Source of the DNA: Thermotogaceae bacterium | GTDB taxonomy: Bacteria; Thermotogota; Thermotogae; Thermotogales; Thermotogaceae | Length of the DNA: 35,076 bases | Direction: 5' to 3' | Assembly: GCA_015489065.1 (NCBI GenBank) | Contig: WGAO01000003.1 | Coordinates: 1 to 35,076, forward strand | Notes under the pieces: model-generated | Databases searched by the model: none | What the model was told of the DNA's origin: nothing | The model's input: the letters and a program-made list of their open reading frames with translations, nothing else | Shown: in pieces, positions 91 through 22,141 of the stretch | Layout of the letters: each line of letters starts with the position of its first letter | How positions within the stretch are numbered: position 1 is the first letter of the stretch | Position numbers and translations under genes: made by a program

Positions 91-773
91 TTAAGTAGTA
101 TCCAATTCTGATTTTCTGGAGTTTTTCAAGACTTTTTCTACAAATCGCTCGATACTTTCAGTATCTGATATATCATGGTCGCGTATTATATGTGTGCCTC
201 TTTTTGCAAGAAACTTGGCGGGTTGGATGTTGAGTGGAGACGGATAAACATATACCGGTATTCCCATTTTCATCGCGGATTTTGCCGTTGCAAAACTTCC
301 ACTTCTCTTGCCCACTTCTGGACCTGGTTCTATGACTATCACTGCTTTAGATAATGCACATACGGTTTCGTTTCCTTTCATTGCGTTATAAGCTCTCCAC
401 TGTTGATTTTGGCTTAAATTGAGATACAGCAACGATGCCTTTTTCCAAATCTTTCTTCATCAATTTGGAAAACCTTCCTTGTACTTATCAAATTCAAAAT
501 TCCATAGCTCAACACCATCGTTGTTATTCCGTTACCCTCTATTGCCTAGATGTGCATAGGTATCTACACCTTTTGCGAATCCAGATACCACTACCTCGCC
601 AATGTTTTGCAAATTTCGTACTCAGCTTCTTTGAAAATATCAAACCTTTCTTTGATGCATTTCGTTCCCCAACTATCGCAACTTCCTCTTTCCTGAAAAG
701 TTTCAATCGAACCTTTGAGGGATGGAGGCAGCCATTCATGTTGGTGAGGAGCTGGCGGTAGATCCGTTTTCAA
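91..773 (-). pseudogene. dprA: dprA/smf-like gene, multiply frameshifted
   Basis: DprA (Smf) is a Rossmann-fold protein that loads RecA onto incoming single-stranded DNA in transformation. Its motifs are here in the right order but scattered over all three minus-strand frames: a lead-in LPPSLKGSIETF (about 720-755), EEVAIVGERNAS (about 655-690), GEVVVSGFAKGVDTYAH (about 545-600), NGITTMVLSYGI (about 500-530), KGIVAVSQFKPKST (about 400-445), and then an intact stretch 432-91 with ALSKAVIVIEPGPE, RSGSFATAKSAM and GIPVYVYP. At least four single-base shifts are needed to join them, for example near 600, 545, 495 and 400. The other genes in the window are intact, so real decay is more likely than poor sequence, but assembly error is not excluded. 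The 5' boundary at 773 (TTG) is approximate and has no clear ribosome site. Confidence 0.75.
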
Positions 774-2395: not shown

Positions 2396-2404
2396 TGTTA
2401 ATAT
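2396..2404 (+). promoter_or_regulatory. Putative extended -10 upstream of nusB
   Basis: TGT-TAATAT (2396-2404) fits an extended -10 element and would give a leader of about 25 nt before the nusB start. No good -35 hexamer is seen; the region is a T run. This 2334-2435 gap must also hold the promoter of the divergent small gene, which I could not place. Confidence 0.35.
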
Positions 2405-2435
2405 ACAACCTTAGAGAAAATAGGAGGTGATTTTT

Positions 2436-2867
2436 ATAAAACCGGCGACGAGAAGAAGCAGGATGAGAGAAGCAGTGTTCAAGGCGATCTTTCAAATGGA
2501 TTTCACCTCCAACGATCCAGAAGAGATGATAAATGAATATATCGAAGATTGGTTCGACGAAAAGCTCATAGAAGATGCAAAAAGATATGCAAAAGGTATA
2601 AGAGATAATCTCAAAAAGATAGACGAAGTTATATCTTCAAAACTCGAAAATTGGAAGTTTGAGAGACTCTCATCAGTTGACAGAAACATACTCAGACTTG
2701 GTACTTACGAACTTCTCTATGAGAAAGATGTTCCTATAGAGGTCACCCTTGATGAGATGATAGAAATGGCTAAGAGGTATGGTACGGAAAATAGTGGTAA
2801 ATTTGTGAACGGTGTTCTTGATAGAATATCAAAAGAGTATGCACCTATCGAGAAAAAAGATTTGTAA
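2436..2867 (+). CDS. nusB: Transcription antitermination factor NusB, likely AUA start
   Basis: NusB binds boxA RNA with NusE (S10) in antitermination complexes on rRNA operons. The helical-fold landmarks are clear: [32 protein letters not shown], and the C-terminal [20 protein letters not shown]. The start is unusual. The only in-frame GTG (2427) is part of the ribosome site AGGAGGTGAT (2422-2431), and the first in-frame ATG (2463) would cut conserved basic residues and has no good site. ATA at 2436 lies 8 nt after AGGAGG and gives 143 aa, beginning [12 protein letters not shown], close to T. maritima NusB as I recall it (MKTPRRRMR...). I infer an AUA start, which might couple expression to initiation-factor levels as AUU does for infC. 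fhs follows 14 nt later. Confidence 0.85.
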
Positions 2868-2881
2868 AGGAGGGATCGTAG

Positions 2882-4561
2882 ATGGGATTTCCAAGCGATA
2901 TTGAGATAGCCAGGCAGGCTAAGCTCAAGGAGATATCCGAAATAGCTGATGAACTTGGAATACCAAAGGATAAACTCAAGCCCTACGGCTGGTACATAGC
3001 AAAGGTGGATCATAACTACTACAAAGAGATATCAGACAAGCCAGATGCAAAACTCATACTCGTTACTGCTATTACGCCAACCCCAGCTGGAGAAGGAAAG
3101 ACAACCACCAGCATAGGACTTTCCATGGGACTCAACAGACTCGGCAAGAAGACCATAGTTACCCTTAGGGAACCATCTCTTGGACCTGTTATGGGAGTTA
3201 AAGGAGGAGCTGCTGGCGGGGGATATTCGCAGGTCCTTCCGATGGAAGAAATAAACCTGCATTTCACAGGAGATATACACGCAGTTGCCGCAGCTCATAA
3301 CCTCCTCTCAGCTATGATAGATGCTCATATAAAATTTGGTAATGAACTCAACATAGATCCGACAAGAGTATTTTGGAAAAGAACGGTAGACATGAACGAC
3401 AGAGCTTTGAGACAGGTCGTTGTCGGACTTGGAGGAAGGGGAAATGGAGAACCAAGAGAGGATGGATTCATTATCACAGCAGCTTCCGAGGTTATGGCTA
3501 TACTTTGCCTTGCGAAAGACTTGGCAGATCTCAAAGAGAGGCTCTCTAAGATCGTCATAGCGAGAAAGAGAACGGGAGAAATTGTCACCGCTGGAGATCT
3601 TAAAGCCCAGAACGCTATGGCTCTCCTTCTCAAAGATGCTATCAATCCAAATCTCGTTCAGACCATAGAAAACACACCGGCGTTCATTCATGGAGGACCG
3701 TTTGCAAACATAGCCCATGGAACAAATTCCATAATGGCTACGAAACTGGCTCTCAAACTCGCTGATTATGTCGTAACAGAGGCAGGTTTTGGAGCAGATC
3801 TCGGAGCTGAGAAATTCCTCGATTTCGTGTCGCCAACTGCTGGTTTCAAGCCGTCTGTTGTTGTTCTGGTAGCTACTGTGAGGGCTCTCAAATACCACGG
3901 TGGTCAGAAACTCGAAGACGCAAAGAAGGGTGTTGAAGATCTTGAAGCTCTGAAGAAAGGACTCGAAAATCTCAGAGTTCACATAGAGAATCTGCAGAAG
4001 TTCAAACTGCCAGTAGTCGTAGCTCTCAACAGGTTCTTTACCGATACTGACAGGGAACTCCAGATGGTTATGGAATTCGTTGAGAACATGGGAGCAAAAA
4101 TAGCCCTTAACGAAGCTTTCGCAAAAGGTGGAGAGGGAGCAGAAGAACTTGCAAAGAAGGTTCTTGAGGAGCTTGAAAAAGATGCTCAGTATGAGCCTAT
4201 ATACAGATGGGATATGCCAATTGAAGAAAAAATCGAGATCCTTGCAAAGGAAATATACAGAGCAGGAAAAGTCGAATACACCTCGGCGGCGAAGAGCAAG
4301 CTCAAATTCCTCAAAAAATACGGTTTTGATAAACTTCCGATAATAGTTGCAAAAACACAGAGCTCGATAAGTGACGATCCAAAGAAACTCGGTGCTCCTC
4401 AGGGATACACATTTACGGTGAGAGACTTTGAGATATCTATCGGTGCGGGATTCGTCGTTGTCTTGGCTGGAGATATACTCAGAATGCCCGGACTTCCGAA
4501 AGTTCCAAACGCTGTGAAGATGGATATACTCGATGATGGAACGATAGTCGGGCTTTCGTAA
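2882..4561 (+). CDS. fhs: Formate--tetrahydrofolate ligase
   Basis: Makes 10-formyl-tetrahydrofolate from formate, THF and ATP, feeding purine synthesis and formyl-Met. The 559-aa length is typical. The P-loop-like [16 protein letters not shown] is at about residues 65-80, followed by [32 protein letters not shown] and [13 protein letters not shown], all hallmarks of the family. ATG at 2882 follows AAAGGAGGG at 9 nt. It is the second gene of a nusB-fhs operon and ends at a strong terminator. Codon use is more biased (AUA, AAG, CTC) than in nearby genes, which suggests high expression. Confidence 0.98.
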
Positions 4562-21787: not shown

Positions 21788-22141
21788 TTGAGGATCCTTC
21801 AACAAAAAGATATTATAATAGTCATCACTGTTATAGCGGTAGCCTTAATACCTATTTTTGTTAAGAAAAGTCAGGCTTTCTCAAACGTAGTACTGGTTGA
21901 AGTTGATGGGAAAGTTGTGATGAGGATAGAAAATCCAGGCAGGTACGATGTCTACAGAAACGGTAAGAGGATAACGACCGTGATTTTTAATGGAAAAGAG
22001 GTCAGGGTGGAAAATTCCACTTGCCGGTTGAAAATATGCGAGAAGATGGGATGGGTAAAACCGGGAGGAGAGATAATCTGCGTTCCAAACCACCTGATAG
22101 TTCGATTCGAAAAGAGCAAGACAGACGCAATGACTTGGTAG
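21788..22141 (+). CDS. NusG domain II-containing exported/anchored protein
   Basis: 117-aa protein: N-terminal membrane anchor or signal (DIIIVITVIAVALIPIFV), then a NusG_II-type domain with the conserved CRLKICEKMGWVKPGGEIICVPNHLIV. Family members are small extracytoplasmic proteins, often next to Gx transporter/heptaprenyl diphosphate synthase component I genes, as here; function is unknown. TTG 21788 follows GGTGAGGT, giving MRILQQKD. Its 3' end overlaps the likely start of the next gene by 7 nt. Confidence 0.85.
   Translation: MRILQQKDIIIVITVIAVALIPIFVKKSQAFSNVVLVEVDGKVVMRIENPGRYDVYRNGKRITTVIFNGKEVRVENSTCRLKICEKMGWVKPGGEIICVPNHLIVRFEKSKTDAMTW

Follow-up and report, generated by a model that had tools for sequence, protein, structure and literature searches.

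The transcription antitermination factor NusB of a heat-loving member of the Thermotogaceae, from a clade represented by environmental assemblies, is very probably translated from an AUA codon (position 2436) rather than from AUG, as judged from the architecture of the site, its counterparts in related species and the behavior of other start sites of similar construction. The gene lies in a stretch of 35,076 nucleotides, hereafter the window, which is contig C3 of a 134-contig assembly (genome G000). It does not stand isolated, and some other genes of the family, including those encoding SecA and a CoxS-like protein, appear from their sequences to begin likewise. The nusB gene would represent a conserved AUA start in the gene of an rRNA-transcription factor, and AUH starts (AUA, AUU, or AUC) are indicated to recur in core genes of one bacterial family and to be retained there.

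The features of the nusB locus and the other candidate loci are listed in Table 1. The nusB frame is preceded by an in-frame stop codon (TAG, 2421–2423), and the sole canonical codon between this stop and the conserved N-terminus is the GTG at 2427–2429, which is held within AGGAGGTGAT (2422–2431); the initial annotation had described this site correctly. The GGAGG motif ends at 2427, leaving a spacer of 8 nt to the ATA. The product (scanned from GTG 2427) matches TIGR01951 with 144.5 bits against a cut-off of 88.35, over positions 2–130 of the 131 of the model, and query residues 5–142 align with residues 3–141 of the solved chain 1tzt_A, residues 1–4 being outside the aligned stretch. The fhs gene adjoins nusB in all six species of the clade defined below (tblastn).

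Table 1. Coordinates of the nusB locus in the window and of candidate AUH-initiated genes in the Thermotogaceae (L, locus handles).
Feature	Position or loci	Strand	Remarks
nusB, transcription antitermination factor	2436..2867	+	143 codons plus stop; TIGR01951 2e-42; 1tzt 9.1e-53
Putative start codon ATA of nusB	2436..2438	+	spacer 8; invariant in 6/6 species; ATG at this position in the other genera of the family
Extended Shine-Dalgarno (SD) of nusB, AGGAGGTGAT(T)	2422..2432	+	11 pairs with the 16S tail, ending in a U-G wobble; -22.1 kcal/mol
In-frame GTG within SD	2427..2429	+	judged non-start; best own SD -4.4; start slot is the codon 9 nt later
Downstream ATG	2463..2465	+	9 codons past ATA 2436; rejected as sole start of nusB
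fhs, formate-tetrahydrofolate ligase	2882..4561	+	PRK13505, 888 bits; next gene after nusB
Probable extended -10 promoter element of nusB, TG-T-TAATAT	2396..2404	+	read by eye
Divergent small ORF, 71 aa	2118..2333	-	GGAGGTGATCCCC-ATG, 8-nt spacer, in-frame GTG inside SD
secA, window genus	L184:19688 (G000 contig C76); L124; L122	- (L184)	apparent start ATA/ATT
CoxS-like gene	L135, L134, L136, L231, L230		apparent start ATA (four species) or ATC (one)
era	L197, L190, L192, L194, L202, L193, L205, L203		probable start ATT; ATC in G005
Metallophosphoesterase	L236-L242		apparent start ATA in seven Thermotoga-like species

Transcription of nusB is predicted to start at about 2411. The pattern TGTGNTAWTAT recurs upstream of the gene in all six species, at shifted positions, and a consensus scanner, which requires a -35 box, returned no match for this promoter. 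RpoD promoters of T. maritima are described as containing TGn and as having 7 bp between the -10 element and the transcript start (PMC3636130). The divergent small ORF upstream serves as a natural control for nusB, its SD containing an in-frame GTG that is just as false; it has orthologues in G001 and G002 (89 and 73% identity, respectively) and no family in NCBIfam (scanned from GTG) or Pfam. Near the beginning of the window an ORF at 91–432 (minus strand) matches DprA (PF02481), and short ORFs in other frames of 91–770 (minus strand) resemble, by eye, further DprA pieces, as in a degraded gene or one affected by sequence errors.

SD energies were calculated as a simple ungapped stacking sum against the 16S tail GGATCACCTCCTTTCT, which was taken from the relative G009; a search for 16S gave no match in the window's own assembly, from which its own 3' end is missing. 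On this scale the ATA at spacer 8 reaches -22.1 kcal/mol, GTG 2427 and ATG 2463 at best -4.4 kcal/mol, and the next canonical codons downstream -7.7 (GTG 2475) and -6.3 kcal/mol (ATG 2496). Across the six clade species the SD of the ATA ranges from -20.8 to -23.2 kcal/mol and the best value for the GTG inside the SD is -5.3 kcal/mol; in all of them pairing extends past GGAGG toward the start codon (AGGAGGTGATT and variants that keep a wobble). The spacing was compared with a first sample of the window genome (257 kb, comprising the window together with 20 stretches drawn from the contigs in order), in which the spacers between GGAGG and ATG peak at 7–8 nt (20 and 20 of 72 pairs), as do those of GTG (6 and 8) and TTG (7 and 10). 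The 8-nt spacer of the nusB ATA is the spacing favored by this genome. As expected of a gene with an SD-directed AUH start of the infC/ccpN type, nusB lacks a well-placed canonical start and has its AUA at the SD-optimal distance.

The same sample served to gauge the role of chance. Among the 111 complete coding ORFs of the 257-kb sample with GGAGG near the start, 97 show a canonical start 3–12 nt later, 12 show neither a canonical nor a near-cognate codon and two show a near-cognate codon only, namely the ATA of nusB and a CTG at 22078, the latter set aside as a probable chance occurrence. When ORFs were scanned under a lax threshold nusB was missed, as weak canonical SDs elsewhere were counted, and an energy difference was then used. 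Under a strict threshold AUH occupied the SD-optimal position in 3 of 6 (G000), 5 of 10 (G002), and 1 of 6 (Thermotoga-like G009) ORFs without a good canonical start. Two of the five AUH cases in G002 (ATT at C15:93918 and ATA at C15:257616) look like chance, so that the real cases are roughly equaled in number by other codons and chance AUH taken together. A scan of contig C15 of G002, chosen for carrying nusB and infC, recovered infC (ATC) as a positive control and also secA (ATT) and the CoxS-like gene (ATA). A GAPDH gene (C15:179024) was also dropped as an AUH start because an ATG follows. Among the 40 extra stretches of G000, those on C76, C132, and C123 were chosen for the secA, CoxS-like, and infC genes they carry, and the G000 counts in the threshold scans and in the control described next are enriched accordingly. 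Loci L031–L035 duplicate L002–L006 and were left out of counts.

The main alternative start is GTG 2427, which overlaps the SD and would make the isoleucine at position 4 an ordinary residue. No other canonical codon lies in frame upstream, and all six species carry this GTG, an invariance that is also compatible with an SD role, since the SD would require those bases. The isoleucine could be constrained as a residue, and canonical in-frame codons in or beside the SD accompany all eight era and all five CoxS-like cases discussed below. Against this reading, the GTG has no SD of its own upstream in any of the six species, the two codons that would follow it vary (IF, IS, VS, IC, or VF) while the fourth is always ATA, and ATA or ATT is found at two genes without any such GTG (secA of the window genus and the phosphoesterase). 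Moreover, an in-frame GTG arises in any GGAGGTG with an 8-nt spacer. This was examined in complete coding ORFs whose start region contains a GGAGGTG with its GTG in frame: the codon located 9 nt beyond this GTG is ATG, GTG, or TTG in 30 of 32 ORFs in G000 (the other two being the ATA of nusB and that of the CoxS-like gene, whose contig was fetched on purpose), in 13 of 18 in G002 (the rest comprising two ATA, ACG, CGG, and GTA) and in 18 of 19 in G009 (the exception being the ATT of era). A canonical codon in 61 of 69 ORFs over the three samples identifies the position 9 nt on as the start slot, which contradicts a GTG start for nusB; the ACG, CGG, and GTA of G002 have no explanation, and the slot is for this reason not perfect evidence. 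Taken together, initiation at GTG 2427 is improbable.

Initiation at ATG 2463, with the first nine codons as a leader, is less probable still. It would offer a plain ATG that is found in the five sister species too; its SD is weak (-4.4 kcal/mol in the window and -9.8 kcal/mol in G002) and the residues it would discard match an N-terminus of NusB that relatives translate from ATG, GTG, or TTG. In addition, codons 2–9 counted from the ATA show 53 synonymous versus 10 nonsynonymous pairwise codon differences among the six species, with 1, 2, and 6 variable columns of 8 at the first, second, and third codon positions, respectively. These codons evolve as coding sequence, which excludes ATG 2463 as the sole start.

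The AUA is conserved within a clade of six species in three genera (G000–G002 in g1, G003 in g2, G004 and G007 in g3); the five nearest relatives of this NusB are titled Thermotogaceae MAGs, three of which share a naming series. All six species contain GGAGGTG-RTY-TNT-ATA-AAA at nusB, in a leader in which every column from -48 to -16 varies in the ungapped register. The changes within RTY preserve pairing with the 16S tail (A-U or G-U; C-G or U-G). The initial annotation had named a sister genome with its start plainly at another codon as a refutation of the AUA start, and none of the five sisters shows this. The possibility that a sequencing or assembly error converted ATG into ATA, conceivable in an assembly of 134 contigs, is negligible and already refuted by this conservation, the same codon being ATA in five other assemblies and three genera. 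Invariance of the ATA was rejected as proof by itself, given that 6 of 28 invariant internal isoleucine columns are likewise ATA throughout the six species. The other genera of the family (g4 and g5, eight species) have ATG AAA as the aligned codons, and species of f2 and f3 carry GTG, TTG, or ATG near the aligned start. Since ATG is found in g4 and g5 and ATA in g1–g3, the simplest account is a single replacement of ATG by ATA close to the base of g1–g3, which may have happened roughly when nusB lost its upstream neighbor and was left as the first gene, ahead of fhs.

Of all these genes, secA presents the clearest non-canonical start. Its slot is ATA in G000 and G001 and ATT in G002, with a stop codon three codons ahead of it, and no canonical codon is met until 58 (G000), 43 (G001, TTG), and 10 (G002, TTG) codons in. 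Eleven of the 12 secA loci were displayed (G005 did not match the motif); outside the window genus there is an ATG near this position in G003, G004, G007, G009, G012, G016, and G024 and a GTG in G017, and the ATG of G003, G004, G007, and G009 occurs in the same context as the AUH codon. The infC gene of the window genome starts with ATC, and its relatives in the order with ATC, ATA, or ATT (18 of 20 loci, by eye). A CoxS-like 2Fe-2S gene (Pfam Fer2/Fer2_2) appears to start with ATA in G000, G002, G004, and G007 and with ATC in G003, each of the five with an in-frame GTG in the SD; its start was read in five of the seven genomes with a match (G001 has more distant homologues only and G017 was left out).

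Two further genes are found in the Thermotoga-like genus g5. The era gene probably starts with ATT in all seven species of this genus, and its slot is ATC in g4 (G005). At the aligned position, the eight f3 species read carry ATG or GTG and the five g1–g3 species read carry TTG or GTG, while of ten f2 species nine carry TTG and one CTG (G034, L196); starts were readable in 31 of 43 era loci, the other 12 having no motif match. Each of the eight g5 and g4 copies is preceded, at a distance of 9 nt, by a GTG or TTG in frame, and in two of them an ATG occurs 6 nt ahead of the slot as well. With these codons in or beside the SD, era alone is a weaker case. A metallophosphoesterase gene shows ATA directly after an in-frame stop in all seven g5 species, with a moderate SD (-12.9 to -14.0 kcal/mol); its first canonical codon lies 38 codons in for G011 and G013 and is a GTG at codon 4 in the other five. 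Elsewhere the gene has ATG (G000, G002, G003, and G005) or GTG (G016).

Whether these weak starts are kept by selection or are tolerated was considered by comparison with silent sites. No ATG, GTG, or TTG occurs at the slot in any copy of the groups concerned (nusB, 6; CoxS-like, 5; secA, 3; era, 8; phosphoesterase, 7). Of the invariant Lys/Glu/Gln columns, only 3 of 20 in nusB and 2 of 68 in fhs have A at the third position throughout the six species; the corresponding figures are 1 of 14 for the CoxS-like gene, 16 of 112 for secA (three species), 2 of 46 for era, and 3 of 34 for the phosphoesterase. The change from ATA to ATG is the same A-to-G change as the silent loss and should be welcome, so that a retained ATA is unlikely to be neutral; the comparison, which takes no account of codon bias or of the structure of the tree, suggests an advantage for a weak start. 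In the contrary reading AUA is a real start that arose by neutral drift and is tolerated with no regulatory role, a strong SD making the identity of the codon matter little at high growth temperature. We regard this as a considerable possibility, although not the favored one. It agrees with the mixed character of the gene set (nusB, secA, era, a 2Fe-2S subunit, and a phosphoesterase) and with the switching of the codons among ATA, ATT, and ATC, and it gains from the fact that retention was counted in groups defined by carrying AUH and is partly circular, least so for nusB. Where a GTG might start the gene, retention is also confounded by the isoleucine residue, a complication from which secA and the phosphoesterase are free. 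It is the absence of reversions in all five groups, set against the rare retention of third-position A, that argues for selection over drift.

From the layout of the site we infer that AUA is used in the cell, that methionine is the first residue of NusB and that the yield is lowered. The transcript would begin about 25 nt upstream, at the extended -10 element, with a leader consisting of little more than the SD and the start codon. The long, near-perfect SD (AGGAGGUGAUU) would hold the 30S subunit so that the AUA sits in the P site, where the fMet initiator tRNA would pair with it at two of three positions and the protein would begin with fMet. Against the use of AUA stands its poor performance as a start codon in E. 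coli. The combination of a strong SD and a weak start codon may lower the output of NusB and probably makes it sensitive to the stringency of initiation (for instance IF3, free 30S subunits, or growth state). Regulation of the nusB start through IF3, a speculative but plausible reading, would be a reasonable guess given that infC of the same genome has ATC. A broader proposal is that the Thermotogaceae keep by selection a set of core genes with AUA, AUU, or AUC starts (infC, nusB, secA, era, the CoxS-like gene, and the metallophosphoesterase) as a start-codon regulon that follows the level of IF3 or the stringency of initiation, its members mostly having extended SDs, arising independently in different genera and tending to be hidden from gene finders; as a whole this is tentative and rather unlikely. 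The hiding would follow from an annotation trap, since every GGAGGTG with an 8-nt spacer brings with it an in-frame GTG that falsely resembles a start. T. maritima can be grown and the era and phosphoesterase cases occur in its near relatives, which makes it directly testable whether a bacterium controls core genes jointly through the strength of their start codons.

Non-canonical starts of this type are known from other bacteria, and the AUA start of nusB adds to the known class of AUH codons with extended SDs; the family-wide set is the novel part. A search of titles and abstracts in open-licence PMC showed no report of AUA or AUU starts in Thermotoga genes among the matches listed, which weakly suggests that such starts are absent from print. 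The infC gene resembles nusB in having a non-canonical AUH start plus a strong SD, and its mechanism is autoregulation by IF3; NusB, in contrast, is not an initiation factor, and a loop on itself is therefore not expected. The pcnB gene of E. coli, which reportedly has an AUU start, is similar in that a weak start limits the product of an RNA-related gene, and differs in codon, gene, and phylum. Autoregulation of infC has been called likely for S. aureus, where this gene, like ccpN of S. aureus and B. subtilis, has a conserved AUA start with an extended SD (PMC13009471). The claim of the initial annotation that AUA and AUU starts are known chiefly from infC was too narrow, as ccpN in both species and S. 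aureus citZ use AUA, and it also conflicts with the family itself, where secA, the CoxS-like gene, the phosphoesterase, and probably era appear to use AUA, AUU, or AUC. AUA and AUU reporters of ccpN, citZ, and cvfC1 in their native initiation context are described as reaching about 10% of AUG in poor medium in S. aureus, and the ccpN reporter up to 30% in rich medium (PMC13009471). In aur mRNA, G-U could replace A-U in the start-proximal SD (PMC13009471), a tolerance that matches the GGAGGTGGT variants of the nusB SD. The S. aureus citZ is like nusB in its codon, but its AUA occurs only among strains of a single lineage, and S. aureus cvfC1 differs from nusB in having an AUU start. The ccpN gene shares with nusB the AUA, the extended SD, conservation between genera and a product that is a transcription-related factor; it is an unrelated gene of another phylum, for which ribosome profiling and a reporter in S. 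aureus support the start, whereas that of nusB is predicted from sequence.
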